Shown piece after piece: positions 15,933-33,533 of a stretch of 33,719 bases of DNA. Made by a program: the position numbers and the translations under genes. Source of the stretch: Bacillus rhizoplanae (lineage in GTDB: Bacteria; Bacillota; Bacilli; Bacillales; Bacillaceae_G); contig NZ_CAKJTI010000033.1 in NCBI RefSeq assembly GCF_917563915.1, forward strand, positions 1 through 33,719. Direction: 5' to 3'. Positions within the stretch are counted from its first letter, which is position 1. Each line of letters opens with the position of its first letter. The notes under the pieces were generated by a model. It did not search any database. It saw nothing but the letters and a program-made list of their open reading frames with translations, and was not told the origin of the DNA.

Positions 15933-16020
15933 TGTGGATCTGAAATAAAGTTACGATTTTTATAAAAAAGACGCGATGTTTTGAATAAAGTCACGATCTT
16001 TGCAAAAAAGTTGCGAAGCT
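15928..16020 (+). mobile_element. Tn7-like transposon end, set A (interrupts moxR)
   Basis: From 15933 the sequence reads TGTGGATCTG, then AAATAAAGTTACGA. In Tn7 the terminal TGTGGGCGGA is likewise ten bases before the first C/A-AATAAAG TnsB site. Four sites follow at ~20-base spacing (AATAAAG or AAAAAAG, each with CGAT or similar): about 15943, 15964, 15984 and 16004. This tandem arrangement resembles the Tn7 right end. A 5-bp target duplication would be AGAAG (15928-15932); its second copy is not found in the window. Confidence 0.7.
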
Positions 16021-16058
16021 TTACCCTTTTGGATATTTTTGTCTGAAGGGGTGTTTTT

Positions 16059-16175
16059 ATGACTAAAAGAAAAAGAACATCTGATCGGTTTAAAAAAGTT
16101 GAAACGTTTTTAAAAAAGCTTAATCAAAAATCCTGTATGAAATGCAAAAATTTATTCAGCAATCGGGAGCTTTAA
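16059..16175 (+). CDS. Short ORF, 38 residues, inside the set A end
   Basis: ATG at 16059 with GAAGGGGTG eight bases upstream. The product is very basic (MTKRKRTSDRFKKVETFLKK... ending in NREL) with a CMKC pair near residues 26-29. The first coding position inside a Tn7-like end is often the start of a transposition gene, so this may be the N-terminus of a truncated gene, but I do not recognise it. The frame runs into the dyad motif at 16155. Confidence 0.35.
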   Translation: MTKRKRTSDRFKKVETFLKKLNQKSCMKCKNLFSNREL

Positions 16176-16183
16176 TGGAATAA
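16155..16183. repeat. Dyad motif copy 1
   Basis: Reads TTCAGCAATCGGGAGC then TTTAATGGAATAA. It shares the CAATCGGG core and GGAATAA edge with copies at 16321, 17421 (inverted), 17620, 24030 and 25498. Confidence 0.6.
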
Positions 16184-16185
16184 AA

Positions 16186-16267
16186 GGAGAGCATATATTA
16201 GTCATGTATAATATGTGCTTTCCTTTATTTTTAGGGATTTTTATAATTTAGGTCTTGATAATAAATT
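16186..16267 (+). repeat. Copy 2 of the 47-bp repeat with 15-bp hairpin
   Basis: Positions 16186-16223 form a hairpin with 15-base arms (GGAGAGCATATATTA / TAATATGTGCTTTCC, two G-T pairs) and loop GTCATGTA. Positions 16221-16267 equal copies 1 and 3 exactly. The loop is the reverse complement of the loop in copy 1, while the flanks keep the same order. The repeat stops at AATAAATT, directly before the set B sites. Confidence 0.8.
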
Positions 16268-16352
16268 CAATAAAGTCGTTTGAAAAATAATAAAGTTGTT
16301 TAAAAAAATGCGAGTCATTCTATTCAACAATCGGGCCGAATTGTTGAGGAAT
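16255..16352 (+). mobile_element. Tn7-like end, set B (interior to the right)
   Basis: CAATAAAGTCGTTT (16268) and TAATAAAGTTGTTT (16291) are two TnsB-like sites. The inner flank (GAGTCATTCTATTC..GGGCC..ATTGTTGAGGAA) aligns with the inner flank of set D read in reverse (AGTCATGTTATTCC..GGGCC..ATTGTGGAGGAA), so B and D look like the two ends of one 7.9-kb unit. The outer ~10 bases coincide with the end of the 47-bp repeat, so the true terminus may have been replaced. Confidence 0.6.
16321..16352. repeat. Dyad motif copy 2
   Basis: TATTCAACAATCGGGCC then GAATTGTTGAGGAA, on the inner side of set B. Confidence 0.55.
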
Positions 16353-16483
16353 TATAGACAGTAGACATCCTACTTGAATAAGATTAATGGTAAAATTGAG
16401 AAGTATGGAAGACTTGATAAAGAATATAAACTAGTTGGTTACAATTAAAAGGGTCTTAATATTAAGGAAGGAAGTGCAAAACT

Positions 16484-17191
16484 ATGGATTTCGAAACAGT
16501 TATACAGGAGCTTGAAGCCCTCGGTAAGGAACGAACTAAAAAAATGTACATATCCAATGGTGCGCACGAGCCGCTTTTTGGCGTAGCTACAGGTGCTATG
16601 AAACCAATCGCAAAGAAAATAAAAATAAATCAACGTTTAGCTGAAGAGCTTTATTCCACAGGTAACTACGATGCAATGTACTTTGCAGGCATTATTGCAA
16701 ACCCAAAAGCTATGAGTGAGTCGGATTTTGATCGTTGGATGGATGGGGCATATTTTTATATGCTGTCTGATTTTGTGGTGGCAGTAACTTTATCAGAGTC
16801 AGATTTTGCACAAGACGTTGCTGATAAATGGATTGCAAGCGGTGACGAGCTGAGAATGTCAGCGGGCTGGAGTTGCTACTGCTGGCTTTTAGGGAATCGC
16901 CTAGACAATGAATTTTCCGAAAGCAAGATTTCCAATATGCTTGAAATTGTGAAAAATACGATTCATGATTCGCCAGAACGAACGAAATCCGCTATGAATA
17001 ATTTTCTATACACCGTGGGGATTTCATATTTGCCGCTACATGAAAAGGCAGTCGAGACCGCAAAAGAAGTAGGTACAGTAGAAGTAAAACGGGACAAGAA
17101 AAAAAGCAGTTTCCTAAATGCTTACGAAAGTATTCATAAGGAAATTGATAGAGGGAGGCTTGGTTTCAAACGTAAATATGTAAGATGTTAA
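16484..17191 (+). CDS. DNA alkylation repair (AlkD-like) protein
   Basis: 235 residues, all helical, matching the HEAT-repeat-like DNA alkylation repair family (PF08713). The opening MDFETVIQELEALGKERTKKMYISNGAHEPLFGVATGAMKPIAKKI is typical, as are LSDFVVAVTLSESDFAQDVADKW and AGWSCYCWLLG. Classical AlkD removes N3- and N7-alkylpurines. This branch is more diverged, so glycosylase activity is inferred rather than shown. AAGGAAGGAAG precedes the ATG. The gene lies between Tn7-like end sets B and C and is therefore transposon cargo. Confidence 0.75.
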   Translation: MDFETVIQELEALGKERTKKMYISNGAHEPLFGVATGAMKPIAKKIKINQRLAEELYSTGNYDAMYFAGIIANPKAMSESDFDRWMDGAYFYMLSDFVVAVTLSESDFAQDVADKWIASGDELRMSAGWSCYCWLLGNRLDNEFSESKISNMLEIVKNTIHDSPERTKSAMNNFLYTVGISYLPLHEKAVETAKEVGTVEVKRDKKKSSFLNAYESIHKEIDRGRLGFKRKYVRC

Positions 17192-17203
17192 AAATTAGCT
17201 TAG

Positions 17204-17359
17204 TATTGGGGTGTTGATCCAAGAAGGATTGACTCTCTTTTTGTTGAAGTTACTGAACTAACGGGCAGAAGGGTGAAGGAGAATTTAGACCATAACTTTA
17301 TAAATACCATTGACTTGGAGTTCACTCCAGCTGTTATGATTTCGAGAGAAATTAGATGA
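17204..17359 (+). pseudogene. Gene fragment behind the AlkD-like gene
   Basis: An open stretch of about 51 codons without a start reads YWGVDPRRIDSLFVEVTE, then TGRRVKENLDHNF and ends FTPAVMISREIR. It looks protein-like in composition but I do not recognise the family. The end of the frame overlaps the MerR-type palindrome, so one of the two readings may be coincidental. Confidence 0.3.
17310..17340 (+). promoter_or_regulatory. MerR-type promoter/operator without its gene
   Basis: TTGACT (17310-17315) and TATGAT (17335-17340) are separated by 19 bases, the stretched spacer of MerR-activated promoters. The spacer holds TGGAGT-TC-ACTCCA, a perfect 6-bp inverted repeat in the expected position. 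No MerR regulator or intact target follows; the next frame (ATGAAAAATTAG) stops after three codons. Confidence 0.55.
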
Positions 17360-17420
17360 AAAATTAGGATTCGGAAATCCTGTAAAATATTTAATCTTTG
17401 TATAAATACATCTATTCCTT

Positions 17421-17441
17421 TATTCCAGAAAAGGGCGCTAT
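17421..17441 (-). repeat. Dyad motif copy 3 (inverted)
   Basis: TATTCCAGAAAAGGGCGCTAT is the reverse complement of the right half of copy 4 (GCGCCCTTTTCTGGAATA), inside set C. Confidence 0.6.
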
Positions 17442-17464
17442 TTTTTGAGTGAAACTTAGATTTT

Positions 17465-17612
17465 TAAACGACTTTATTGTTATATTTTTGAGTACAGTGA
17501 AGTATCTTACATCAAAAATTAAACAACTATATTTTTAACCCCGTCCTAAATTTAGAACGGGGTTATGCTTGTTTGAGCTTTTAAAATTAAAAAACTTTAT
17601 TGTCATTTTACA
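17465..17612 (-). mobile_element. Tn7-like end, set C (interior to the left)
   Basis: Read on the minus strand from 17612: TGTAAAATGA, C, AATAAAGTTTTTTAATTTT. The terminus is TGT and the first site begins at the same offset as in Tn7. A degenerate site (TATAGTTGTTTAATTTT) lies near 17520-17535 and a good one (CAATAAAGTCGTTTAAAAA) near 17467-17486. A CCCCGT/ACGGGG hairpin lies between. The element interior should lie to the left, containing the AlkD-like gene. Confidence 0.65.
17535..17566 (+). terminator. Hairpin inside set C
   Basis: AACCCCGT and ACGGGGTT form a stem with an AAATTTAG-containing loop. The T-rich tail is weak. Confidence 0.55.
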
Positions 17613-17619
17613 AAAGGAC

Positions 17620-17650
17620 TATTCCAGAATCGCGCCCTTTTCTGGAATAA
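17620..17650 (+). repeat. Dyad motif copy 4
   Basis: TATTCCAGAATCGCGCC then CTTTTCTGGAATAA. The outer TATTCCAGAA / TTCTGGAATA arms are perfectly symmetric. It starts eight bases outside the set C terminus. Confidence 0.65.
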
Positions 17651-17737
17651 CCTCTCTTAATTCAATAGGTGTTGTTTAAGACTTCTATCATTTAAGAAAA
17701 TTTGTTTTTACAAAATTAATTAGGTTCTGCTTAATGA

Positions 17738-17972
17738 TTAAAAAAATATCCAGCCACTTATGCCAACAAAAATACATGCATATAGGTTTATTGTATTCTT
17801 TAATAATAGATAAACGATAAGTAATAAAACAGCAGTAGCTGGAAATCCGCAAAGAACACCAAAAGCAAATTTACTCAAACTCTCGCTTGCTTCACCTTGA
17901 ACATATAACCAAATAATGCTTAATAAACTTACGAGTGGAAGGGCTGCTATAGCTCCTCCATATATAAGAAAA
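17738..17972 (-). pseudogene. DUF3147-like membrane protein, C-terminal fragment
   Basis: The minus strand encodes YGGAIAALPLVSLLSIIWLY, a charged loop (VQGEASESLSKFAFG), then CGFPATAVLLLIVYLLLKN and a last hydrophobic stretch ending GWIFF before TAA at 17738. This matches the C-terminal two-thirds of small DUF3147-type membrane proteins of Bacillus. The N-terminus is replaced upstream of about 17972, next to the palindrome GTTCTCGCATGAGAAC (17974-17989). Confidence 0.6.
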
Positions 17973-18063
17973 CTGTTCTCGCATGAGAACGGTCTTCTTA
18001 TTGTGTACCCATCATAAGTCCAATTCTACAAAGATCTTCTCGCGGATGGCCTCTAAATTTGTT

Positions 18064-18669
18064 TTAGTTCTTCATTTTCAATCCCTCAAGGATTGTTTTA
18101 ATCAGCGGCATTGATAATGACTCTAGACTTTGGTCAGAGTCGTGTATACCCCAGTGATAGATGCTTCCCATTAGGCTTTGTGTGACCATTGTTGAAATGA
18201 CTTCTACACATTGGTCAGTGCCAATGGATCCTTGGTCCTTAGCTTCTTCAAGTAGTGTAAAGATGATTTGAAAGAGTGAACGGTTTGAATTTAAAAAGTA
18301 AGTGTGTTCTTTTGAATTTAGAGCGGAACTATAAATGACTTTCATAAGATCTTTACCCATTTCTTCTTCTAGAAAGCGCAATAATTTCTGAGTGAAAATA
18401 AATAGTTTTTCAAATGGGTCCATATCTTTCGGGAAAGAATGGAAAACTTCTAAATAATAATTGTCGACTTCTGTGAATCTCTCTAAAAATATGTCCGATT
18501 TAGCCGAAAAGTGTTGGTAAAATGAACCTTTTGAAGTGCCGGTTTTTTTCACGATTTCGTCGACTGTTACTTTGTCATAACCCTTTTGGCTAAAAAGTTT
18601 TAAAGCTGTTTTTAAAATTTTATCGCGTGTTACTTCTCCTCTGCGCTGCTTTTTTTTTGATTCTAGCAT
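18064..18669 (-). CDS. TetR/AcrR-family repressor of the ketone-body cassette
   Basis: 201 residues. The HTH domain runs RDKILKTALKLFSQKGYDKV, then TVDEIVKKTGTSKGSFYQHF at about 33-52, the standard TetR N-terminus. The C-terminal helical ligand domain is unassigned. The ATG follows CTGGAGG. It is divergent from the CoA-transferase genes, with two palindromes (18720-18731 and 18742-18753) in the shared promoter region, so it very likely represses itself and the cassette. The inducer is probably 3-hydroxybutyrate, acetoacetate or a CoA ester. Confidence 0.85.
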   Translation of the reverse strand: MLESKKKQRRGEVTRDKILKTALKLFSQKGYDKVTVDEIVKKTGTSKGSFYQHFSAKSDIFLERFTEVDNYYLEVFHSFPKDMDPFEKLFIFTQKLLRFLEEEMGKDLMKVIYSSALNSKEHTYFLNSNRSLFQIIFTLLEEAKDQGSIGTDQCVEVISTMVTQSLMGSIYHWGIHDSDQSLESLSMPLIKTILEGLKMKN

Positions 18670-18689
18670 GAAAAATCCTCCAGGAATAA

Positions 18690-18767
18690 TTGACAGAATA
18701 TTTAAATTTTTATAAAATCAGACTATGGTCTAATTATAAACAGACTGCAGTCTAGTTAACAAGTTAA
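18690..18767. promoter_or_regulatory. Divergent promoters with paired TetR operators
   Basis: The operators are AGACTATGGTCT (18720-18731, 10 of 12 symmetric) and AGACTGCAGTCT (18742-18753, perfect), 22 bases centre to centre. The plus-strand promoter is TTGACA, 17 bases, TAAAAT just left of the first operator. The minus-strand promoter is TTGTTA, 18 bases, TATAAT, with the second operator inside its spacer. Both promoters can be blocked by one repressor pair. Confidence 0.75.
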
Positions 18768-18870
18768 TGTTTTATTCAAGTCTACCTCATAGATTTCGAC
18801 TATCACAACGATTTCTTATTTTATTTTAACCGAAAAAGAAAGCGCTTTATAAAGAAATGGAGGGGAAATA

Positions 18871-19557
18871 ATGGATAAAGTCATTGAGTCTAGTGAAATA
18901 AGAAAGTATTTCAAGAGTGGCGATGTAATTTTAACAGGAGGCTTTGGCTTATCAGGTACACCTTTAACGATCATTGATGAACTATTAGAAACAGACATTC
19001 GTGATTTAACGATTGTTAGTAATAATTTAGGGGATCTTGGACAAGGATTACATAAAGTATTCATGCAGGGAAAAATCAAAAAAGCAATTGGCTCCTTTTT
19101 TTCCATTAATAAAGAAGCGGTAATAGCCTGGTCTAAAGGCGAGCTTGAAATCGATTTGCTACCTCAAGGTACATTAGCTGAAGCAATTCGCTGCGGCGGT
19201 GCCGGAATAGGTGGTTTTTACACAAGAACCGCCGTTGGCACTGAATTAAGCAAGGGCAAAGAGGAAAGAGAAATTGATGGAGAGAGATACATTTTTGAAA
19301 AGGCTATTAAAGGTGATGTCGCTATTATAAAGGCGGATAAAGCAGATCGAATTGGAAATTTAGTGTACCATACGACAGCTAGAAACTTTAACCCTATGAT
19401 GGCTACAGCTGGAAAAATAGTCATTGCCGAAGTTAATGAAATTGTTGAAGTTGGTGAGCTGGACCCAGAATTTGTTGTGACGCCTCATGCGTATGTGGAT
19501 TATGTCATCCAAAGCAAATATTCAAAGATAGGGAGTGATTATGTTGAGTCAAGATAA
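18871..19557 (+). CDS. 3-oxoacid CoA-transferase subunit A (acetoacetate activation)
   Basis: 228 residues, full length for the ScoA/AtoD family. GDVILTGGFGLSGTP near residues 17-31 is the conserved CoA-binding glycine stretch, SNNLGDLGQGL and AIRCGGAGIGGFYTRTAVGT follow, and the C-terminus has VVTPHAYVDYVI. With subunit B it moves CoA from succinyl-CoA or another donor to acetoacetate. ATG follows GGAGGGG. It is the first gene of a five-gene cassette and overlaps subunit B by 17 bases. Confidence 0.88.
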   Translation: MDKVIESSEIRKYFKSGDVILTGGFGLSGTPLTIIDELLETDIRDLTIVSNNLGDLGQGLHKVFMQGKIKKAIGSFFSINKEAVIAWSKGELEIDLLPQGTLAEAIRCGGAGIGGFYTRTAVGTELSKGKEEREIDGERYIFEKAIKGDVAIIKADKADRIGNLVYHTTARNFNPMMATAGKIVIAEVNEIVEVGELDPEFVVTPHAYVDYVIQSKYSKIGSDYVESR

Positions 19558-20203
19558 AAGACAAATTATTGCTAAGAGAATTGCCGAAGAATTAGAAGAT
19601 GGACAGATTGTTAACTTAGGAGTTGGAATTCCTACTTTGGTTGCTTCCTATTTAGGTGATAAAGAGGTTTATTTACAATCTGAGAATGGATTGTTAGGTA
19701 TGGGACCTTCTCCTGCAGAGGAAAATTTAGATATTGATTTAATTAATGCAGGAAAAGAACCGGTTACCTATTTGAAAGGTGCATCATTTTTTAATAGTGC
19801 TGATTCTTTTGCTTTGATTAGAGGTGGTCATATTGACGTAGCCGTTTTAGGCACACTTCAGGTGGATGTTCATGGTGAAATTGCCAACTGGGCCGTTCCG
19901 AATCAGCCGATTTTAGGCGTTGGTGGAGCAATGGATTTGGTGACAGGAGCAAAAAAGGTTATTGTCGCAGCTACCTTGTTTGCAAAGGATGGAACGTCTA
20001 AATTAGTCAAGGAATTATCATATAAAACTAGCGGGATTCGAAAAATTGATTTATTTGTTTCCGATTACGCTGTTTTTAAATTTACGGATAAAGGCGTAAA
20101 AGTTGTAGAAATGATGGAAGAGATTTCAATACAAGAATTAAGTGAAAAGGTTGGTTTTGATTTAGAGTATTTGAATGATTTAACACTCGTAAGTAATAAG
20201 TGA
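19541..20203 (+). CDS. 3-oxoacid CoA-transferase subunit B
   Basis: 220 residues. The catalytic glutamate lies in S-E-N-G-L-L-G-M-G (E48). NLGVGIPTLVASYL and GGHIDVAVLGTLQVDVHGEIANW are hallmark ScoB/AtoA blocks. The ATG at 19541 follows GGGAG; a GTG six bases earlier is less well placed. It forms a heteromer with subunit A. Acetoacetyl-CoA made here feeds the thiolase two genes downstream. Confidence 0.88.
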   Translation: MLSQDKRQIIAKRIAEELEDGQIVNLGVGIPTLVASYLGDKEVYLQSENGLLGMGPSPAEENLDIDLINAGKEPVTYLKGASFFNSADSFALIRGGHIDVAVLGTLQVDVHGEIANWAVPNQPILGVGGAMDLVTGAKKVIVAATLFAKDGTSKLVKELSYKTSGIRKIDLFVSDYAVFKFTDKGVKVVEMMEEISIQELSEKVGFDLEYLNDLTLVSNK

Positions 20204-20220
20204 AGAATGGAGGGCAACAC

Positions 20221-20976
20221 TTGGACAAGCAAAGAACAGTTATTGTGACAGGTGCAGCAGGCGGTTTGGGTAAAGCAATCGCAAAGGAATTTATTAAACA
20301 AAATGACTTTGTTTATGTAGCGGATCTTAATAAAGGGGCTGCAGAGGAGACCGCATTTTCGCTGGGGGAAAATGCAAAAGGAATTTATTTAGATGTTACG
20401 GATGAAGCTGTTATTCAATCAACCATTGCAGACATTTTGAAGGAGAGGGGATCGATTGAGGTTTTAGTGAATAATGCCGGAATTCAATATCGTGCGCCAT
20501 TAGAGTCATTCCCTTTAGAAAAATGGAACTTGCTTATGGATGTCATGCTGACAGGTGTATTCCTAATGACAAAGCATGTTTTTCCGCATATGAAGAAAGA
20601 AGAGTACGGCAGGATTGTGAATATTTCATCTGTTCATGGGAAGATGGCCACACCTGAAAAAGTCGCCTATGTTGCTGCCAAGCATGGCGTGATAGGCGTA
20701 ACGGGTGTAACTGCCCTAGAGGGAGCGCCATATAAAATAACGGCTAACTCGATTTTACCTGGTCCAGTGAAAACAGAATTGCTAGTTAAGCAGCTTGATA
20801 GCTTAACAGATAAAGGAATGACGGATAAAGAAGCGCTTGAGGCTATTATGTATCCAAGGCAAGCGATGAATCGTTTTATCGAACCAGAAGAGGTTGCTTC
20901 TGGCGTCGCTTATTTAGCATCAGATGCAGCAGGCGGTATTACAGGAGAACATATTAAAGACGCAGGCGGCATGTAA
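20221..20976 (+). CDS. SDR-family dehydrogenase, probable 3-hydroxybutyrate dehydrogenase
   Basis: 251 residues. The nucleotide loop TGAAGGLG (10-17), NNAG (84-87), and catalytic S136/S137, Y150 and K154 (YVAAK) are present. Substrate assignment comes from overall resemblance (N-S-I-L-P-G-P-V-K-T-E-L) and from context between CoA transferase and thiolase: (R)-3-hydroxybutyrate to acetoacetate with NAD+. The C-terminus GEHIKDAGGM is shorter than the WTAQ-type ending common in the family. The TTG at 20221 follows GGAGGG; the GTG at 20200 has no ribosome site. Confidence 0.8.
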   Translation: MDKQRTVIVTGAAGGLGKAIAKEFIKQNDFVYVADLNKGAAEETAFSLGENAKGIYLDVTDEAVIQSTIADILKERGSIEVLVNNAGIQYRAPLESFPLEKWNLLMDVMLTGVFLMTKHVFPHMKKEEYGRIVNISSVHGKMATPEKVAYVAAKHGVIGVTGVTALEGAPYKITANSILPGPVKTELLVKQLDSLTDKGMTDKEALEAIMYPRQAMNRFIEPEEVASGVAYLASDAAGGITGEHIKDAGGM

Positions 20977-20999
20977 TAAAAAAAAGAGGAGGAAAAAGA

Positions 21000-22184
21000 A
21001 TGGCAACTTATATTGTTGACGGAGCAAGAACAGCCTTTGGTACTTTTGGCGGGGCATTAAAAGATGTGACCGATATCGATTTGGGTGTAGCAGCAACGGA
21101 AGAGGCATTGAAAAGAAGCGGAATTCAAGCTTCTAATGTAGATGAAATCATATTTGGAAATATTATCCACACAAGCAGCAGCTCTGCTTATTTAGCCAGA
21201 CATATCGGTTTAAAAAGCGGCATGGCAGAGTCATCATCTGCGCTTACACTTAATAGATTATGCGGTTCGGGCATGCAGTCTATCGTATCTGCCGCACAGT
21301 CCATTGCTTCTGGGGATGCAAAAGTAGTTGTCGCTGGAGGAACCGAAAATATGAGCTTATCACCGCATGTATTAAGAGGCACGCGCTTCGGCTCACCAAA
21401 TAAAGCACCAAAAGTTGATGATATGTTATGGGAAACATTAACAGATAACTACGTTGGCTGTGGAATGGGGATGACAGCTGAAAACTTAGCTGAAAAATAT
21501 TCAATTTCCCGAGAAGAGCAGGATCAGTTTTCTGTGGAATCACAAGAAAAGGCCATTGCAGCAAGAGATAGCGGCCGTTTTGCGGAGGAAATTGTTCCGG
21601 TTAAGTTAAAAGGCAGAAAAGGCAAGGAAGTCATTTTTGATACGGATGAGCATATTCGTGAAGGTGCATCTGTAGAAGGTTTAGCAAAATTGAAGCCCGC
21701 TTTTAAAAAGGATGGGACTGTTACACCAGGGAACGCGAGCGGCATTAATGATGGTGCAGCTGCTGTGTTAGTCGCATCTGAGGAGTATGTGAGTGAACAT
21801 AACTTAAAGCCGCTTGCGAAAATTGTAACATGGGGCGTTGCAGGAGTTGACCCGAGCATTATGGGTATTGGCCCCGTACCAGCAAGCAAAAAAGCATTAG
21901 AAAAGGCTGGTTTAAGCTTAGAGGATATTGGTTTGTTCGAATTTAATGAGGCATTTGCTTCACAATCTATTGCTGTAATTAAAGAGTTAGGTGTCGATAA
22001 GGAAAAGGTGAATGTGAACGGAGGGGCTGTTGCATTAGGCCATCCTGTAGGCGCAAGCGGTGCTAGAATCACCTATTCTTTAGCACTTGAAATGAGGAAA
22101 AGAAACGTTAAATATGGATTAGCTTCGCTTTGTATTGGCGGCGGACAAGGTATTGCCATTATTTTAGAAAATGTACAAAGCTGA
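21000..22184 (+). CDS. Acetyl-CoA C-acetyltransferase (thiolase)
   Basis: 394 residues, the normal thiolase length. Active-site Cys88 is in LNRLCGSGMQS, the histidine in NGGAVALGHPVGASG and the second cysteine in LCIGGGQG near residue 380. It cleaves acetoacetyl-CoA with CoA into two acetyl-CoA, the last step of 3-hydroxybutyrate breakdown, although the reaction is reversible. AAGAGGAGG precedes the ATG and the gene lies 23 bases after the dehydrogenase. Confidence 0.9.
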   Translation: MATYIVDGARTAFGTFGGALKDVTDIDLGVAATEEALKRSGIQASNVDEIIFGNIIHTSSSSAYLARHIGLKSGMAESSSALTLNRLCGSGMQSIVSAAQSIASGDAKVVVAGGTENMSLSPHVLRGTRFGSPNKAPKVDDMLWETLTDNYVGCGMGMTAENLAEKYSISREEQDQFSVESQEKAIAARDSGRFAEEIVPVKLKGRKGKEVIFDTDEHIREGASVEGLAKLKPAFKKDGTVTPGNASGINDGAAAVLVASEEYVSEHNLKPLAKIVTWGVAGVDPSIMGIGPVPASKKALEKAGLSLEDIGLFEFNEAFASQSIAVIKELGVDKEKVNVNGGAVALGHPVGASGARITYSLALEMRKRNVKYGLASLCIGGGQGIAIILENVQS

Positions 22185-22207
22185 TGAAACAGATAGGGGG
22201 GAATTTG

Positions 22208-23527
22208 ATGAATCAGAATATTAAGGCTATAGAAAAAAGTACAATCCGTAAAACGATGAAACGCATTCTTCCAACTATATTAATTCTATATGTTGTTGCT
22301 TACTTAGACCGGGTAAACTTAGGCTATGCTGCTTTAGAAATGAATGCAGAATTAGCTTTATCTGCTGAAGTTTTTGGTCTTCTTTCCGGTATTTTCTTTA
22401 TTGGCTATTTCTTTTTTGAAGTCCCAAGTAACATGATTATGCATAAAGTTGGGGCGCGCATTTGGATTGCCCGGATTATGCTTTCATGGGGAATTATAGT
22501 AATCTTAACTGGTTTCGCGCAAACGACGACACATTTATACATCCTGCGTTTTCTATTAGGTATTGCTGAAGCCGGGTTTTTTCCTGGAATTGTTTTGTAT
22601 TTAACTTATTGGTTTAGAGCCCGTGAAAGAGGACGAGCAACAGCTGCATTACTGCTGGCTTTACCGATAGGCGGCCTAATCGGCGCACCAGTGTCAACGT
22701 GGATTATTGATAACATATTTTGGCTCAATATGTCAGGATGGAGATGGATGTTTATCCTTGAGGGCATCCCGGCCATTATCTTAGGTGTTCTTACTATTTT
22801 CTTCTTAACAAATAGACCTGCAAAAGCAAAATGGTTATCGAAGGAAGAAATAGATTGGCTGGAGGGCGAATTGAGTGCTGAACGGCAAGCAAGTTCAAAA
22901 GTAAATAAAGTCTCAAAACTAGACATGCTGAAGGATTCAAAGGTTTGGAAGTTATCTGTGTTATATTTTGCTGTTTATACAGGTATCTATGGCTTGTCAT
23001 TCTGGATGCCAACCATCATTAAATCCTTATCAGAAATTGCCACGACCAACTTAGAAATAGGCTGGTTAGCCATGATTCCTTCATTAGTAGGTATTCCGGC
23101 TATTATATTTGTCGGATGGTATTCGGATCGAACGAATGCGTACAAACAACATTTAATTGTTTGCTTTATTATCTCAGTATTGGGCTTTATCGGATGTGGC
23201 TTTTCAGAAAGCGTCTTTATGATGGTACTTATGTTAACAATTACATCTGCTGGATTATTTGGATTTACTGGATGTTTCTTTGCCTACATGACATTTTTCT
23301 TCACCGAGTCTACTGCACCTGTTGGTATCGCTTTAGTCAATTCATTTGCGGCATTAGGCGGATTTGTAGGACCAATGATTCTTGGATCTGTAGCATTTAC
23401 CCAAGGAATGTTTATTTTATCAGGATTACTAATAATCGGCCTTTTTACATTAATTACATTAAAATTGACAAGTAATAATAGTGTGGACACTGTCAAAGAA
23501 ACACAGCCAATTGTTACTCAATCATAA
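22208..23527 (+). CDS. MFS transporter, probable uptake of 3-hydroxybutyrate or acetoacetate
   Basis: 439 residues with 12 predicted TM segments. D-R-V-N-L-G-Y-A at the end of TM1 and G-x-x-E-A-G-F-F-P-G in TM4 are signatures of the anion:cation symporter branch of the major facilitator superfamily, which moves small organic acids. ATG at 22208 follows GGGGG; the upstream ATG at 22130 lies within the thiolase gene. The last gene of the cassette, it ends before the terminator at 23643-23680. The substrate is inferred from context. Confidence 0.82.
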   Translation: MNQNIKAIEKSTIRKTMKRILPTILILYVVAYLDRVNLGYAALEMNAELALSAEVFGLLSGIFFIGYFFFEVPSNMIMHKVGARIWIARIMLSWGIIVILTGFAQTTTHLYILRFLLGIAEAGFFPGIVLYLTYWFRARERGRATAALLLALPIGGLIGAPVSTWIIDNIFWLNMSGWRWMFILEGIPAIILGVLTIFFLTNRPAKAKWLSKEEIDWLEGELSAERQASSKVNKVSKLDMLKDSKVWKLSVLYFAVYTGIYGLSFWMPTIIKSLSEIATTNLEIGWLAMIPSLVGIPAIIFVGWYSDRTNAYKQHLIVCFIISVLGFIGCGFSESVFMMVLMLTITSAGLFGFTGCFFAYMTFFFTESTAPVGIALVNSFAALGGFVGPMILGSVAFTQGMFILSGLLIIGLFTLITLKLTSNNSVDTVKETQPIVTQS

Positions 23528-23642
23528 CGGATAATATTTAAAAGGACGCTAATCTTTAGTAAAACGGAGCTGTGTACCATAAACAAGATGTCACCAAGCA
23601 CCCCCCCGTGAGAATTATTAAGATGTTAAATAGTGTTCATCA

Positions 23643-23680: not shown

Positions 23681-23689
23681 TTAGTTAAA

Positions 23690-24029: not shown

Positions 24030-24060
24030 TCCTCCACAATCTGGCCCTTTAACGGAATAA
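24030..24060 (+). repeat. Dyad motif copy 5
   Basis: TCCTCCACAATCTGGCC then CTTTAACGGAATAA, on the inner side of set D. Confidence 0.6.
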
Positions 24061-24140
24061 CATGACTGGCGTTTTTAAACATCTTTATTGCAAATGTAAC
24101 GATTTTATTTAAAATTAAACAACTTTATTGTAACTCATCA
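24060..24140 (-). mobile_element. Tn7-like end, set D (interior to the left)
   Basis: Minus strand from 24140: TGATGAGTTA, C, AATAAAGTTGTTTAATTTT, then a weaker site (AATAAAATCGTTACA) and GCAATAAAGATGTTTAAAAA. The first site has the Tn7 offset, but the terminus is TGA rather than TGT. It pairs by flank similarity with set B and so brackets the AlkD-like gene and the whole ketone-body cassette. Confidence 0.6.
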
Positions 24141-25450: not shown

Positions 25451-25497
25451 AATTTATTAAGCACACAGAAAAGCTGAAGAGAGCTCTTTTATTTTTG

Positions 25498-27150: not shown

Positions 27151-27179
27151 CACCGAGCCCGCGGTTCGTCGTTCGTTTA

Positions 27180-27345
27180 AAAAAAGGCTGGTGAATTTCA
27201 TCGACCTTATTGGGGCAGAATCAGGACGTGACGCGGAGTTGGTTGGACGGAGTGGAAGCGGGCATGGGCATGGCCGCAAGTCCTTGGAGGTCTATTCAAA
27301 GCTTGCAATCACCGATGCCCAGCAGGGATATAACGAGGTCATCAA
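27180..27345 (+). pseudogene. Tyrosine recombinase, C-terminal remnant
   Basis: One frame reads GAESGRDAELVGRSGSGHGH, then GRKSLEVYSKLAITDAQQGY and NEVINNL. The S-L-E-V-Y-S-K-L-A block carries the nucleophilic tyrosine of phage-type integrases, followed by the usual A-x-A-Q-x-x-Y helix. The catalytic Arg and His boxes are missing. It is still GC-richer than the host and was probably brought in with the hydrolase. Confidence 0.6.
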
Positions 27346-27428
27346 TAATCTAATTACATCTATATTGCGGGTGGTGTCAGCTTCGCTGGTACTACCCCCA
27401 ATAGGGGGCTTAGCTTAACAAGCCAAAT

Positions 27429-27463
27429 TAAAAAGTCGGTTCCTAAGGAATTCGACTTTTTTA
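27429..27463 (+). terminator. Terminator behind the serine hydrolase block
   Basis: AAAAAGTCG-GTTCC and GGAAT-TCGACTTTTTT form a stem with a T-run. Confidence 0.8.
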
Positions 27464-27534
27464 GGTTGAATTTCACAATTCGTGTTTCTTTAATACTATT
27501 TTTGACATTGTTCGATTTGGAAATAAAAGTAATC

Positions 27535-27571
27535 CTATGACCCGTTTTTACACGTATCTCGGTTGAACCCC
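27535..27571 (-). repeat. Tn3-family terminal inverted repeat, right copy
   Basis: 37 bases ending in AACCCC; 36 of 37 match the left copy in inverted orientation. The bases flanking the two copies are ATAAA (left) and TATTT (right), so no target duplication is visible and the pair does not mark one clean insertion. Confidence 0.8.
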
Positions 27572-27717
27572 TATTTCATTGTGGGGAGGATTCAAAAATA
27601 CACTCAGGATGATTGTCTGGTTTTGGATCATAATGCTTTTTATATTTGGAGAAAGCTTGTTACAATAAAAAGAAAAACATAGGGTAAATAAGATAATGAA
27701 AAGAGGAAAGAGGCTGA

Positions 27718-27987
27718 ATGAAGTCAACGGGAATCACTAGAAAAGTAGATGAATTGGGGCGTGTAGTTATCCCAAAAGAACTGAGGGATACGCTCGGTAT
27801 TAAAGAAAAATCACCATTAGAGATCTTTGTAGATGGAGAAAAAATTGTTTTACAGAAGTATCAAGCTGGTGGGGCTTGTATGATAACTGGTGAGGTTTCA
27901 GAACGTAATATGTCATTAGCAAATGGAAAGATTACAATAAGTCCAGAAGGTGCAGAGTACCTGGTTAAAGAGTTGCAACAATACTAA
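27718..27987 (+). CDS. AbrB-family transition-state regulator
   Basis: 89 residues. The N-terminal swapped-hairpin DNA-binding domain (MKSTGITRKVDELGRVVIPKEL, then R-D-T-L-G-I) is clearly AbrB/SpoVT type. The C-terminal part (ACMITGEVSERNMSLANGKI) matches the AbrB/Abh multimerisation region. GAGGAAAGAGG precedes the ATG. Paralogous AbrB genes are common on B. cereus-group plasmids and islands; this is probably an accessory copy, not the chromosomal abrB. It is followed by its own terminator. Confidence 0.88.
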   Translation: MKSTGITRKVDELGRVVIPKELRDTLGIKEKSPLEIFVDGEKIVLQKYQAGGACMITGEVSERNMSLANGKITISPEGAEYLVKELQQY

Positions 27988-28002
27988 GTTGAATAGAGAA
28001 AT

Positions 28003-28036
28003 TAAAGGCTCCGCCATACAGGGAGCTTTTTTTATT
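28003..28036 (+). terminator. Terminator after the AbrB-family gene
   Basis: AAAGGCTCC and GGGAGCTTTTTTT form a stem with a seven-base loop and T-run. Confidence 0.82.
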
Positions 28037-28214
28037 ATCAATATAATAATTTCACATACTGTAATGATTAATAAACAAAACAACCCACAAATAGCAGTCT
28101 ACATTTATAGCTTGTTTCTCTTTTAGGATGCTTTTTCCTTATAAGTAGATTTTGTCGGAATCCCCAATATAATAGACTATAAGTAAAAGTATTTTTATTT
28201 AATGGGGAGATTGG

Positions 28215-28285
28215 TGCAGCATTGAAATAAAGATGAACCGTTTATAACAAAGTTAAACCGTTTTGAAAAAAATGAAGTCTTAATA
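28215..28285 (+). mobile_element. Tn7-like end, set F (interior to the right)
   Basis: TGCAGCATTG, A, AATAAAGATGAACCG, then AACAAAGTTAAACCG and TTTTGAAAAAAATGAAGTC. The ten-base offset matches Tn7. The tip TGCAGC-A-TTG matches set E (TGCAGC-T-TTG) in opposite orientation, and the AAAAAAATG..AGTC inner edge matches set B. Flanking 5-mers of F and E (ATTGG, GTACA) differ. No gene is seen between 28290 and 28500. Confidence 0.5.
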
Positions 28286-28502
28286 TTTAAAATTTAATTA
28301 AGACCATAGCTGTATTGGAAAATACTCCCTGAGACTATGTTAGCAACTGAAGTTTTTATATAAACTTAAATTAATAACCGAGAAGTAAGGGATTGAAAAT
28401 GTCCTTAGTGATCTGCCTTCATTGTTGATTATCGCAAAGGAATTATAGTAAAAGCAAAAAGGTTGGTAACAATCTTGAAAAATAAAATGAGGTGATTCAT
28501 TA

Positions 28503-29504
28503 ATGATTAATTTCAATGGAGAAGAAGTTACCAAGGTGGACGGTAAAACCAAGGTTGTTCAATCGAATATTAAAGCGTGGTTTGCAATTGGAGCAAGTTC
28601 TATCACACTATTCGCAATTATATTGAAATCCTTTTTACCTGAAGCACCGGATTACACAATGGGATTTGCTCCAGTAGGAATTACGGTATTTGCTTCAATC
28701 TTAGGAATGATTGCACTAGCACTATCTATTAACTGGCAGCGTGAAAGTTTAACGCCACGTTTTCTTTTGCTAATTAGCACATGGGGAGCTTGTTTTATAT
28801 TAGTCTGGTCATCAGGCGGTATTGTGTTTGACATATTACGAACAGCTGCTGTACTTGGAATCCCCGGTTTGCCCCCGGTTGTGGATTGGCCAGGATTTGC
28901 AACCAGAACCATTAGCCTCATAGCTGCCATACTGCTTGCTGCAGCAACTCTCTCTTTTCAACGTATATCCCGAGGGGCATGCATTGTATGTGGTCAAGGG
29001 CCTTCAGTGAAAACCCAACCTGACCGTATTTGGTTCGGCTATGCTGCGTTTGTACTATCTTTTCCATATCCATTATTGAAACTTTATTGGTCCTTCGGTG
29101 GCACCCTAGGAGGTGGCCAAAATTTCAGTCAACATTCTGCTTATGGAGAAATGCTAGTATTTGGCGCTTGTGCATTGCTTTGTCTTGCTCTTGTACAAAA
29201 ATGGGGGCGTATTTTTCCTAAGTGGGTACCGTTTGTTGCTGGGAAAAAAGTTCCTCGATTCATTCTAATCACCGGAGGTTGGGTTGCTGCATCTATGACA
29301 GTTTCAATGGGATTTTTGGCAATATTGGGATCTCTTTTGGAGGTATTAGGTCTTTCGAATGGACCAATGTCTTTCGATGACGAAGGTTTGTTGGTATCTA
29401 TAGTATATGGAGGATGGTTGTTGCTGGGTATCGCGATCACTGGAGCTACCTGGAATTATCAGAAGCAAACCAGAGGTAAATGTGTAAAATGTGGAAAATT
29501 TTAA
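28503..29504 (+). CDS. Hypothetical membrane protein with two CxxC motifs
   Basis: 333 residues with about eight hydrophobic segments. A C-x-x-C lies in a cytosolic-type loop (RGACIVCGQG, about residue 160) and another at the extreme C-terminus (GKCVKCGKF); both follow a basic R-G-(A/K)-C, giving the look of an internal duplication, each half four TM segments plus a C-x-x-C-G. This could bind zinc or an iron-sulfur cluster. Family not recognised. GAGGTG lies upstream of the ATG. It is a single gene with a terminator. Confidence 0.65.
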   Translation: MINFNGEEVTKVDGKTKVVQSNIKAWFAIGASSITLFAIILKSFLPEAPDYTMGFAPVGITVFASILGMIALALSINWQRESLTPRFLLLISTWGACFILVWSSGGIVFDILRTAAVLGIPGLPPVVDWPGFATRTISLIAAILLAAATLSFQRISRGACIVCGQGPSVKTQPDRIWFGYAAFVLSFPYPLLKLYWSFGGTLGGGQNFSQHSAYGEMLVFGACALLCLALVQKWGRIFPKWVPFVAGKKVPRFILITGGWVAASMTVSMGFLAILGSLLEVLGLSNGPMSFDDEGLLVSIVYGGWLLLGIAITGATWNYQKQTRGKCVKCGKF

Positions 29505-29522
29505 ATAATGATTTATAGATAT

Positions 29523-29557
29523 TATAAAAGGATCTTCAAATGAAGATCCTTTTTCAT
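29523..29557 (+). terminator. Terminator after the CxxC membrane protein
   Basis: AAAAGGATCTTC and GAAGATCCTTTTT form a perfect stem around a four-base loop. Confidence 0.9.
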
Positions 29558-29712
29558 TGCTGATAACATCGCTTATGTTGACTACATACCCATTTGAGGC
29601 CTTCTTTAACTAAACCAGCTAATAGAAACAAGTCGTTATTTAATTAAAGGGCGATTTAATGGAGGAAAGATCATAGAAATGATCAAACTTTATTCCAAGG
29701 CTACAATTGGTC

Positions 29713-29997
29713 ATGGAGAAAAAATATGCACAATTTTATAAGTGTGCACTACAAGTAAATCCTTACAATTATATAAGTTACAGAGGAACGAATCATACTC
29801 AAACAGAAGGGGTACTGACGGCAAAACGCGGATTTTATACGCTAAGGATATGCAGGATTTCATGCAGGCTACGAAAACGGTTTAAACTGCCAAATGCTGT
29901 TGTGACAGAGCAGTATGAAATCCTGCATACAGCGGAGGGAACAGAAGGCTGGCAAACTCTTGGTATGAATGGATTTCTAGGATTTGATTACTGCTGA
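29713..29997 (+). pseudogene. Composite gene remnant (N-terminal piece plus unrelated tail)
   Basis: The open frame begins EKKYAQFYKCALQVNPYNYI, then SYRGTNHTQTEG, which resembles the N-terminus of a B. cereus-group PHP-domain/AAA protein. After about codon 37 the resemblance ends and the frame reads unrelated sequence. Another frame over 29845-29900 gives AGFHAGYENGLNC, also protein-like. The pieces appear to be joined fragments. No convincing ribosome site precedes it. Confidence 0.4.
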
Positions 29998-30125
29998 TAA
30001 TGAGACTTTATGTTAACCTCACATGTATAGGGTATACAACGTACATAATCGAGATACTTAAAGGATTCCAATCAGGTTTGTCTAAGTTAGAAAAGAAAGG
30101 ACAAATATCTAAAGAGGTGAAATGG

Positions 30126-30638
30126 ATGCAAATCCTACTAATTCGTCACGGAGAATCTGAAGATGATTTTTTAGAAGAGGGTTATAAAGGACCTACTGAT
30201 TTACAATTAACTAAAAGGGGATTGGAGCAAGTTGAAAAAATGTCTAGTTATATATCAAAGGAATTTCCTCCAGAATTTATTTGGTCGAGTACACTATTGA
30301 GAGCAACTCAATCTACTGAAATTTTGAGTAATGCTGTTAAATGCCCTGTAGAGTATCTAATTGAGTTATGTGAAATGCAGAAGGGGAAGAGTAAACTAGA
30401 CTTTAGATTACGTGCTGAGAACATCCTTGCAGCTGTTAGAGAAAGGAGTAAACAGTACAAACGAATTGCGATTGTTTCCCATGGAGGAGTGATTACAAAA
30501 ATTATAGATAGCTTCCTTCAATTACCGAAAGAACATGATGTATGGTTCCATACTGACAACACAGGCATACATCTACTTGAATACAAGTCTAGTGTCCGTT
30601 TTGTTAGGTTTAGTAACAATACCACTCATTTAAACTAG
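30126..30638 (+). CDS. Histidine phosphatase family protein (PGM-like)
   Basis: 170 residues. The phosphate-accepting motif L-I-R-H-G-E is at residues 5-10, S-T-L-L-R-A-T-Q-S near 57-65 holds the second arginine, and I-V-S-H-G-G-V carries the second catalytic histidine. It is a cytosolic phosphatase of unknown substrate. ATG at 30126 follows AGAGGTG six bases upstream; the longer frame from 30000 has no ribosome site. It is shorter than true phosphoglycerate mutase, as usual for this broad family. Confidence 0.83.
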   Translation: MQILLIRHGESEDDFLEEGYKGPTDLQLTKRGLEQVEKMSSYISKEFPPEFIWSSTLLRATQSTEILSNAVKCPVEYLIELCEMQKGKSKLDFRLRAENILAAVRERSKQYKRIAIVSHGGVITKIIDSFLQLPKEHDVWFHTDNTGIHLLEYKSSVRFVRFSNNTTHLN

Positions 30639-30639
30639 G

Positions 30640-31005
30640 ACAAAAATCAACTTCCGCTAACGAAGACTATGTAAATATATAAAGGTAACAGAAATAATTA
30701 TTAAACGGCTACATGAGGTATCATCACATGCCCATCAACTTAAGAACAAAACCGTTCATCAGAACTAAGATATTCTTAAAGTAGAGGTACACTCTTAAAA
30801 ATGTGCATGCCAAATAAACCTAGATAGACATTATTATTACCTTGTTAGCGATGTGGTAATACCCAACAGCCTTGCAAACTTCTGAGTAAACGGAAGGGCA
30901 CTGTAGTCTTATATAAATTTTATATTAATTCATTATTAATAATATATTATCCGTATTAAAATATGATCTTTATAATGAAGATATCACTTTTAAAAGGAGG
31001 AACTA
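30640..31005. other. Intergenic, no gene seen
   Basis: About 365 bases without a supported gene. The last 100 bases are extremely AT-rich. GGAGG at 30997 serves the aldo/keto reductase. I see no clear promoter or terminator hairpin. Confidence 0.45.
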
Positions 31006-31007
31006 GA

Positions 31008-31997
31008 ATGGAGTTTAGTAAACTTGGCAATAGCGGATTAACAATAAGCAAGATTGCATACGGAAACTGGATAAATCACGGGGGGAAAGTAGATGAGGAT
31101 ACTGCAAATGAGTGTGTTAAAGCAGCACTAGATGTCGGTATAACAACATTCGATACTGCTGATGTTTATTCAGACACTAAAGCTGAAGAAATACTCGGCC
31201 GGTCTTTACAAGGTATACGACGGGAGAGCATTGAACTATGTACAAAGGTGTGCCATCCGACTGGGAATGGGCAAAACGATAAAGGTTTATCACGAAAACA
31301 TATTCTAGAAAATTGTAATGCATCTTTGCGTCGGTTACAGACCGACTATATTGATGTCTATTATGCACACAGATTTGACCCAACTACTCCTCTTGAAGAA
31401 ACGATGTTAGCTTTCGCAGATCTTGTAAGACAAGGTAAAGTGCTTTATATTGGTGTAAGTGAGTGGACAGCAGAACAAATCACCCGTGGTGCAGCACTTT
31501 CACGGGAATTGAATATTCCGCTCATCGCTAGCCAACCCCAGTATTCAATGTTGTGGAGAGTTATCGAAACTGATGTGATACCAACCTGTCAACGTGAGGG
31601 ACTTGGGCAAGTAGTATGGTCGCCTGTCGCACAAGGTGTTCTCACTGGAAAATATCTACCCCAAAAACCAGTACCAACTCAATCACGTGCTAATTCTCCT
31701 GCTGGCAAACCATTTTTTCATAAACTTGCACAACGTTGGATGAACGACAATGTGCTCACTGCTATCCAGAAGCTCAAACCCATCGCACAAGAGATTGATC
31801 TTACCCTCGCTCAACTCGCAATAGCTTGGGTACTACAAAACCAGAATGTTTCCTCAGCAATTATCGGTGCCTCGAATCCGGAACAGGTAAGAGAGAATGC
31901 GTTAGCTTCTGGTGTCAAACTGGAACCTGAAATAATGAATCAGATTGACAAAGTACTAGAAGGTTTCGTTGAGTACGATCCGAGTAAAACAGGTTAA
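31008..31997 (+). CDS. Aldo/keto reductase
   Basis: 329 residues, TIM-barrel AKR of the YghZ/Kv-beta-like group. The catalytic tetrad is D49 and Y54 (T-F-D-T-A-D-V-Y), K80 (L-C-T-K-V) and H121 (Y-Y-A-H-R). The NADPH-binding end has AIIGASNPEQVRENALASG. It reduces aldehydes or ketones with NADPH in the cytosol. ATG at 31008 follows AAAGGAGGA; the upstream frame from 30963 is not needed. It converges on a LysR gene, with a terminator between them. Confidence 0.9.
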   Translation: MEFSKLGNSGLTISKIAYGNWINHGGKVDEDTANECVKAALDVGITTFDTADVYSDTKAEEILGRSLQGIRRESIELCTKVCHPTGNGQNDKGLSRKHILENCNASLRRLQTDYIDVYYAHRFDPTTPLEETMLAFADLVRQGKVLYIGVSEWTAEQITRGAALSRELNIPLIASQPQYSMLWRVIETDVIPTCQREGLGQVVWSPVAQGVLTGKYLPQKPVPTQSRANSPAGKPFFHKLAQRWMNDNVLTAIQKLKPIAQEIDLTLAQLAIAWVLQNQNVSSAIIGASNPEQVRENALASGVKLEPEIMNQIDKVLEGFVEYDPSKTG

Positions 31998-32096
31998 GTT
32001 TTTGCACGTGACTTAACCAGAAATATATACAAAATCTTTGTAGTCTTACTTTAAAACTTAAGTTAAATTAGAATTCTTCCTTTGTAATATTTTACT

Positions 32097-32121
32097 ACCC
32101 ATCCCATCAGGATGGGCTTTT
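32097..32121 (+). terminator. Terminator after the aldo/keto reductase
   Basis: CCCATCC and GGATGGG form a stem around CATCA, followed by CTTTTATTC. It lies in the 3' edge of the converging LysR gene. Confidence 0.78.
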
Positions 32122-33028
32122 ATTCTTGATGATCAAGTTGTAAAATCGAATACACCTCTCTAACAACTGTTAAAAAATGATCTACTACTGCAGATTTTTC
32201 ATCTTGTCTCCATCCAACATATAGATTTACTTTTGGTGTAGTCTCTTGGATTTTTTTATAGATAACCCCAGGACGTTTATAACTTTCCACCGATGATGGA
32301 ACGACAGAAACTCCCATTCCTGTTGCAACTAAATTAACAATAGTTTGCATTTGAATAGCTTCTTGAACAACATTTAAACTTACACCATGATCCCAAAAGT
32401 AGTTAATAATTAAATCATAAAAATTTGGACCCAAATGGCGCGGAAACAAAATAAATGGTTCATCAATTAACAATCGGAGTGGAATTTCGGGCAATGAGGC
32501 GAAAGGGTGATCTTGATGTAAAACCAATCTTAAAGATTCTTCAGAACAAACTTCAGAAGATAGTATCCCGTTGTTCTGTTTAGAACGAATAAATCCAATA
32601 TGAATTTGTTTCTCATAGAGTGCTTTTAGTTGCTGCTCCGTTGTCATTTCACGTAATATAAGATGGATTTTAGGAAAGCGTTCTCGAAATTTATTAAGAA
32701 CTTCTATAACGATTTCTGTGGAATCGACAAAACCGATTATTAAATTTCCTATTTTTCCTTCAGCTGCAAGTTGTGTTTCTTTTATGGCTCTTTCTAATTG
32801 AAACAGCGTTTGTTGAGATCCTTCTAAAAATATCTTCCCAGCATCCGTAAGTTCAACCATTCTTTTTGTTCGATGAAAAAGTTGAACTCCCAATTCTTCT
32901 TCTAATTTACGAATTTCTTGGCTTAGAGGAGGTTGTGCCATCCTAAGACGTTCTGCTGCACGACTAAAATTCAATTCCTCTGCCACCATTATGAAATACC
33001 GCATTTTCCTAATATCTATTTTTATCAA
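32120..33028 (-). CDS. LysR-family transcriptional regulator (CatR/BenM-like)
   Basis: 302 residues. The N-terminal winged helix (MRYFIMVAEELNFSRAAERL, then AQPPLSQEIRKLEEELGVQLF) is classic LTTR, and residues 92-295 form the periplasmic-binding-like effector domain (IGFVDSTEIVIEVLNKFRERFPKIH). The first residues depend on a TTG at 33028 whose AGAAGGG is only one base away; an ATG eight codons in (33004) with AGGAAA is an alternative. LTTRs usually regulate a divergent neighbour, but here the upstream side holds only transposon-end sequence, so its original target may be lost. Confidence 0.82.
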   Translation of the reverse strand: MIKIDIRKMRYFIMVAEELNFSRAAERLRMAQPPLSQEIRKLEEELGVQLFHRTKRMVELTDAGKIFLEGSQQTLFQLERAIKETQLAAEGKIGNLIIGFVDSTEIVIEVLNKFRERFPKIHLILREMTTEQQLKALYEKQIHIGFIRSKQNNGILSSEVCSEESLRLVLHQDHPFASLPEIPLRLLIDEPFILFPRHLGPNFYDLIINYFWDHGVSLNVVQEAIQMQTIVNLVATGMGVSVVPSSVESYKRPGVIYKKIQETTPKVNLYVGWRQDEKSAVVDHFLTVVREVYSILQLDHQE

Positions 33029-33029
33029 T

Positions 33030-33444
33030 CCCTTCTGCTAAAATCCAATAAGGACTTCTCTTTTATTATCAAACTCATTTAGGTGCCTAGTATTTTCGTA
33101 GCCATGCTTTTTATGTTTTACGGCTTTTTGGTATTAGGGAGAGGAGATGTTTTAGAGTTTATCGACCTGTTCCATAGATAAGGGGAAAAATACCTTTCTT
33201 CAAATAACCTGTCAGTTAGTTAAGTAATTACACAAACACATTTTAACATAATACCCCATTCTTAAATCGGAATTTTCTGAATAGTAATGAAAGAAAAAAG
33301 GTAGATTAAAAGTCTTTCTCCTTCTGCAACTAACCTGCATAGTTAGTTTAAGTACATTTCTTCACAATCTTTATAGTAATATTAACATAAATATCCAATA
33401 AAAAAATCATCTCTCCACTAAGAGATTTATAGAGGAGAGAGGAT
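33030..33444. other. Intergenic with a possible gene remnant and a hairpin
   Basis: About 33087-33180 contains a plus-strand frame SIFVAMLFMFYGFLVLGRGD without start signal, perhaps a transporter scrap. Positions 33403-33447 form a hairpin (AATC.TCTCTCC / GGAGAGA.GATT with T-run). Nothing else is seen. Confidence 0.4.
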
Positions 33445-33533
33445 TTTTAATCGAACTTTTTTACAAATTATCAAACTTTATTATAAATCAACACTCTTTA
33501 TTATAAATAATCAATCTTTTTTACAAAGCTGCA
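33445..33533 (-). mobile_element. Tn7-like end, set E (interior to the left)
   Basis: Minus strand from 33533: TGCAGCTTTG, T, AAAAAAGATTGATTTAT, then AATAAAGAGTGTTGATTTAT, AATAAAGTTTGATAATTTGT and AAAAAAGTTCGATT. Four TnsB-like sites at exact 20-base spacing, the same layout as set A and like the Tn7 right end. The tip matches set F. Confidence 0.62.

Follow-up and report, generated by a model that had tools for sequence, protein, structure and literature searches.

Ends of two Tn7-like lineages without tns genes in a Bacillus rhizoplanae contig, including one complete and apparently non-autonomous element

Transposons of the Tn7 type have a characteristic layout, with TG...CA tips, ~20-bp right-end sites, spaced left-end sites, a 5-bp target duplication and tnsA situated by the right end. 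We examined a 33,719-nucleotide stretch of Bacillus rhizoplanae DNA (contig NZ_CAKJTI010000033.1, referred to here as the window) in which several ends of this kind occur. The reading that best accounts for the data, to which we assign a probability of about 0.82, is that the window holds ends of two Tn7-like lineages of the Bacillaceae, comprising a complete non-autonomous element (F), a decayed element (8536-9770), a pair of ends that has lost a tip (B-C) and three orphan ends (A, D and E), and that these were moved in trans by a helper located elsewhere. Homology of the ends to ends adjacent to tnsA, matching target duplications and the absence of tns genes inside the elements were all observed directly.

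The initial annotation had described six clusters of transposase-type sites. On re-reading the sequence, the sites, their spacing and the TG tips of A (15933), C (17612), D (24140), F (28215) and E (33533) were found as it had given them, as were the orientations, with A, B and F pointing rightward and C, D and E leftward. All six clusters are real, but a left end at 29705 and a degenerate pair at 8536/9770 had been overlooked. The shuffled controls that had been proposed were run, and they confirm the site clusters. The window has 8 same-strand pairs of AWAAAG-type sites spaced at exactly 20 bp, where 0.11 would be expected, and none of 300 dinucleotide shuffles gave as many; at a spacing of 40 bp there are 5 pairs (0.14 expected). 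The pattern AWAAAGN14AWAAAG matches 9 times (0.21 expected), and a single one of these matches (25839) lies outside every cluster. A model of the right end, derived from 14 examples that all lie outside the window (one of them on a plasmid), gave 48.0 bits for A, 36.5 for E, 35.0 for F and 14.7 for D, together with 18.5 bits for an additional right end at 9770; the maximum over 200 shuffles of the window was 11.5 bits. A, E and F, which exceed all of the controls, each display overlapping transposase sites behind a TG tip, as Tn7-like ends do.

Assignment to the Tn7-like family, which the initial annotation had inferred from end layout, is borne out by the genes that adjoin such ends in relatives. 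The relatives sample consisted of 299 genomes of one order, in which TnsA was detected by its domain profile (PF08722) in 66 genomes, and an end like those of the window adjoins many of the tnsA genes fetched from them. In two of these loci (L112 and L130), glmS is followed by a right end, by tnsA and by four further genes, which we take to be tnsB to tnsE, in that sequence, from their positions and from the arrangement known for Tn7, TnsA alone having been profile-tested. An element on plasmid NZ_CP085715 and the paired ends with 5-bp duplications, both described below, support the same assignment.

End A (15933..16015, plus strand) is inserted in moxR, the C-terminal part of which (15390..15932, minus strand; AAA_3 and AAA_lid_2 domains) it cuts, and by eye the moxR frame is open as far as the A tip. 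Over a stretch that runs from the tip across the leader and into the opening codons of tnsA, 131 of 158 aligned bases are identical between A and the relative locus L135, and because of this identity we regard A as a right end that retains a relic of the tnsA start (MTKRKRTSDR..., 16059..16175, plus strand, by alignment to L135). Apart from this relic no tnsA, tnsB or tnsC gene was found among the open reading frames (ORFs) of the window, so that the earlier statement that tns genes are lacking stands for ORFs but has to be amended for the leader and first codons kept by A. Searches with the moxR fragment for an empty site of A returned eight loci, all distant MoxR genes, and sweeps of the genomes with the moxR region gave nothing close (best match 66% over 613 bp) and showed no empty site. 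End E (33450..33533, minus strand) is an orphan with matches of 79.5-84.3% in four plasmid records, and no partner end with a matching flank was found in the window for A, C, D or E. Short stretches inside E (33081-33183 and 33320-33416) match a Tn3-family transposase region and unannotated Bacillaceae plasmid stretches. Tn7-like elements use other targets as well as attTn7 downstream of glmS, and neither A, which sits in moxR, nor F, which sits before trlF, lies at attTn7.

F (28215..29705, plus strand; 1,491 bp) is recognized by both end models and is the only element in the window shown to be complete. It is bounded by identical copies of ATTGG at 28210..28214 and 29706..29710, found by flank comparison and corresponding to a 5-bp target-site duplication. 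Over 52 nt its right end (28215..28292, plus strand) is 87% identical to an end that adjoins tnsA (L146). The left end (29680..29705, plus strand) scores 17.9 bits, against a maximum of 13.1 in 200 shuffles, with a model built from left ends recognized through matching 5-bp flanks; the left-end consensus TCAAACTTTATT...CTACA occupies 29683-29705 and is followed directly by ATTGG. The left tail of F also terminates a 22.7-kb element on the Peribacillus asahii plasmid NZ_CP085715, whose annotated genes include TnsA, a Mu-type transposase, an ATP-binding protein and TnsD. F accordingly has the ends of transposase-bearing elements and no transposase inside, as is expected of a non-autonomous derivative. 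Its sole cargo gene (28503..29504, plus strand) encodes a protein of 333 aa that has no match in Pfam or PADLOC and that looks membrane-like on inspection of the sequence. A broken trlF-like gene lies just after F; its first 32 codons (29713..29808, plus strand) match the TrlF family ATPase H82 at 71.9% over residues 1-32. By eye, GGGGAG stands directly to the left of F, and the insertion may have parted this possible ribosome-binding site from the trlF-like start codon.

By end comparison, clusters B, C and D belong to a second Tn7-like lineage. Left end C (17432..17612, plus strand) has the spaced sites of a Tn7 left end (17602 and 17479), ends in CA and matches 23 plasmid records, in 14 of which the best match ends within 2 bases of 17612. 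Five of these records were opened and no tns gene was annotated in the stretch shown, although the plasmid gene tables are incomplete, so that a tns gene absent there means an absent annotation, and some stretches are cut at the record start. Right end B (16257..16349, plus strand) and D (24079..24140, minus strand), an orphan that is probably also a right end, resemble right ends of the lineage of C, both being themselves among the five seeds of the model for that lineage. B lacks a TG tip where one would be expected, the tip being lost at a 48-bp repeat (16221-16268) that runs into B and recurs as an exact inverted copy at 33672-33719; a near-copy is present at about 27-73, at the window start. 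Between B and C lies a DNA alkylation repair gene (16484..17191, plus strand; PF08713), and because the B tip is gone a duplication around B-C cannot be assessed. The nearest tnsA-bearing relative seen for this lineage is a 20.1-kb span in genome G432 with matching TAGAT flanks, and the best C-type span seen, on plasmid NZ_CP085722, is ~1.8 kb with flanks CCTTC/CATTC. The pair at 8536..9770 (minus strand) combines the right end at 9770 with a left-like tip at 8536, encloses an AraC/GyrI-like gene (8702-9586) and is flanked by TTATT/GTATT, which agree at 4 of 5 bases. Nested or stacked elements are not demonstrated within the window: only F has a matching duplication, 8536-9770 agrees in four bases of five, and the orphans A, D and E are unpaired there.

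We surveyed the 299 genomes for further ends. The right-end model detected at least 144 ends in 58 genomes; up to 15 candidates were scored per genome, a number attained by genome G422, so the counts are lower bounds. TnsA lay within 1.5 kb of 19 of the 144 scored ends, and the other 125 had no TnsA match within that distance. At the level of genomes, right ends and TnsA co-occur in 31, compared with 12.8 expected (p = 3e-9). From these 125 ends, 60 stretches were picked by score and by a start at model position 1-3 (one, L270, is an exception that starts at an end with a TnsA fragment nearby), and these held 75 right ends, with the end of glmS within 100 bp upstream of 6. Searching them by tblastn with one set of TnsA, TnsB and TnsC queries gave no TnsB match; parts of TnsA were found in 8 of the stretches and a TnsC fragment of 52 aa in 1. 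Oriented end pairs less than 5 kb apart numbered 36, and 15 of them have identical 5-bp flanks, compared with 0.035 expected. The 15 matches represent 14 separate elements of 233-3,417 bp and one span over two stacked copies; in the latter (L265, 101-4245) two small elements lie head to tail with the common flank ACAGC, and the first keeps a 116-aa tnsA fragment. An earlier set of 47 oriented pairs had yielded identical flanks in 9 (0.046 expected), so that exact flanks are ~200-400 times above expectation in both sets. Lacking tns genes among those nine are F, an element of 1,012 bp in G422 and one of 966 bp that surrounds fabZ on the complete P. asahii plasmid NZ_CP085722, with GTACC on both sides.

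The cargo of these elements is varied. Surveyed elements carry MerR, GntR, RibD-like, OLD-like (nuclease) and, weakly, CMD-like genes, as well as IlvD with GntR, and the nine elements of the earlier set include a peptidase S51 (PepE-like) and a FabA-like dehydratase (FabZ); elements of 233 and 288 bp have exact duplications and no ORF of 60 aa. As judged from end models and flanks, the survey shows that engine-less Tn7-like elements are probably common in related bacteria. We also observed Bacillaceae-type Tn7-like ends together with an S-layer gene in CP079755 (pNY3A), a record assigned to Klebsiella grimontii that is possibly mislabelled or a contaminant.

A mechanism that would produce these structures begins with the loss of tns genes between the tnsA start and the left end and the uptake of other genes. 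TnsABC encoded elsewhere would then bind the AWAAAG sites, pair the two ends and move the element, yielding the 5-bp duplication, with the target picked by TnsD or TnsE of the helper; A, D and E would be orphan ends left after deletion or rearrangement. The proposal in the initial annotation that cargo modules move in trans accounts best for F and the 14 surveyed tns-less elements, but we infer the movement itself from end homology, duplications and the survey.

Several observations weigh against movement in trans, and some of them favor the main alternative, that elements jumped with their tns genes and lost them in place, the small forms never having been mobile as such. We consider this account improbable, though it deserves more weight than the other alternatives. 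TnsA has no match in 27 of the 58 right-end genomes, which leaves 72 ends without a TnsA-type helper in their own assembly; flanks are unlike in 21 of the 36 oriented pairs; and a peptide from the tnsA start persists at 8 of 72 surveyed right ends, in the manner of the leader and codons kept by A. In addition, a piece of tnsA survives in 3 of the 14 surveyed elements (L245, L248 and the first of the two in L265), 2 of the 15 matching flanks consist solely of A or solely of T, no partner with an exactly duplicated flank was found within 15 kb of any of 6 C-type left ends, the F left end matches over the last 26 bp only with the model and weakly over 70 bp in another comparison, and an empty site for F was not found. 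Loss in place fits poorly with small elements that have exact duplications and differing cargo at sizes down to 233 and 288 bp, with two stacked copies that have one duplication in common, and with right-end modules (the sequence inward from a tip) that are alike at up to 92% over 179 nt (L271/L281, the best pair) and then give way to unalignable sequence. That the ends belong to another DDE family, such as Tn5053/Tn402, Mu or an insertion sequence (IS), is very unlikely; several of these families likewise combine repeated transposase sites with 5-bp duplications, but the same ends occur immediately upstream of tnsA in glmS-linked elements. Chance clustering in AT-rich DNA, for which the AT-rich motif and the 30 single HAATAAAG sites in the window could be cited, has next to no probability and is rejected for A, E and F, given that no shuffle among 300 and 200 reached the observed values and that exact flanks so far exceed expectation.

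A second class of sequence, a 30-bp inverted repeat, is also found repeatedly next to the ends (for example TATTCAACAATC-GGGCCA-GATTGTTGAATA). In the window such sites lie inside A (16153..16182, plus strand, core GGGAGC), inside B (16321..16350, plus, core GGGCCG), inside C (17421..17450, minus, core GGGCGC read from right end to left end), just outside C (17620..17649, plus), inside D (24030..24059, plus, core GGGCCA read from D) and at 25496-25525. Like sites with core GGGCCA or GGGCGC also occur between genes of Bacillaceae megaplasmids (NZ_CP085715, NZ_CP022984). Of 72 surveyed right ends, 25 have a site 80-330 bp to the inside (random placement gave a mean of 2.6 and a largest value of 8 in 500 trials) and 2 have one outside; of 12 right ends adjacent to tnsA, none has one inside. 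The strict site pattern was found in 80 of the 299 genomes (reversed control, 0), 30 of which are also right-end genomes, compared with 15.5 expected (p = 5e-6). With TnsA the sites show no such association (20 genomes in common, 17.7 expected, p = 0.53).

In the direction from right end to left end, the core is GGGCCA at 20 of 33 right-end sites and GGGCGC at 11 of 17 left-end sites, with the reservation that a random 250-bp stretch holds a site 10.75% of the time, so both sets contain noise. For the analysis of arms and core, a centre could be set for 110 of 111 sites, with 109 distinct sequences, the orientation model having been seeded with sites from the window, the plasmids and G495, and the two cores cover 83 of the 109. 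Neighboring sites with the same core in direct order numbered 5 of 22, compared with 3.0 expected, a value reached by 304 of 2000 permutations. A terminator or RNA hairpin is not supported as the identity of these sites: the arms do not covary (6.50 of 11 positions within sites and 6.47 between, reached by 2107 of 5000 permutations). Rfam gave no match at the inverted-repeat sites at E 5. An identity as XerS sites is likewise not supported: although some sites have an annotated XerS gene nearby, XerS occurs in 59 of 299 genomes and in 17 of the site genomes (15.8 expected, p = 0.74). XerS was the sole recombinase tested, and neither a recombinase for these sites nor a circle was found.

When right-end modules were aligned from the tip, 71 of 486 pairs reached the site, of which 58 stopped 10-40 nt into it and 1 passed. 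With the sites masked, 32 pairs ended within 15 nt of the site and none passed, and across module pairs 415 of 703 are alike before the site and 3 of 703 past it. This divergence fits a cargo border at the site. Weighing against it, 410 of the 486 module pairs stop before the site, and a border there is unproven because divergence mostly sets in earlier and the sites are themselves alike. It is conceivable, though we think it rather unlikely, that tns-less elements are exchangeable shells in which cargo is swapped by site-specific recombination at GGGCCA (right) and GGGCGC (left) sites and the filled shell is moved by TnsABC, a combination of integron-like capture with Tn7-like transposition in Bacillaceae.

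Other features of the window include a serine hydrolase gene in GC-rich DNA (65%) at 25229-27572 between 55-bp inverted repeats. The region is 83.6% identical to Streptomyces plasmids and 87.3% identical to one Peribacillus plasmid, and the left 55-bp repeat overlaps a stretch that matches part of a Tn3-family transposase region; there is no Tn3 transposase ORF inside 25229-27572 and the 5-bp flanks differ. A lysine riboswitch (1669-1862, minus strand) lies upstream of a permease gene (92-1621). Searches at the near setting gave no plasmid match for the leftmost 15.9 kb and no phage match for 15880-33719.

A non-autonomous transposon is a known kind of element, and the window ends have counterparts in several systems. 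With Tn7 and Tn7-like elements they have in common the tips, the site spacing, the 5-bp duplication and, in the larger relatives, tnsA beside the right end; F differs in having no tns genes inside. MIC231 consists of a passenger gene between the ends of an IS231 transposon and is moved in trans, and it resembles F-type elements in placing a passenger gene between transposon ends, but its ends are those of IS231 and not Tn7-like. Such mobile insertion cassettes of Bacillus cereus are named in PMC6542083. Tn3-derived miniature elements (TIMEs), as described in PMC4133298, are transposase-less, 262-3,892 bp long, produce 5- or 6-bp duplications and can carry other genes; F-type elements are similar in lacking a transposase, in their duplications and in carrying genes, whereas TIMEs belong to the Tn3 family with 38-bp inverted repeats and the window elements have asymmetric Tn7-like ends (PMC4133298). 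The pdif/Xer modules of Acinetobacter, the subject of PMC12907356 and PMC7399989, have single genes flanked by short sites of two arms and a core, as here, but those sites differ from the inverted repeats of the window, with which XerS does not co-occur. A survey of Tn7-like core genes started from core-protein models, and the words 'nonautonomous' and 'non-autonomous' are absent from its main text (PMC8649781). A broad population of small non-autonomous Tn7-like elements was not found in the open-licence literature, which is a weak negative.

Surveys that start from core genes are blind to Tn7-like elements without tns genes. If our survey holds, most such right ends in the sampled order lack a TnsA gene next to them, and some delimit small elements with one or few genes. 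The sites at possible cargo borders raise the question of how cargo changes. If true, these elements would offer genes a hidden way to pass between chromosomes and plasmids.

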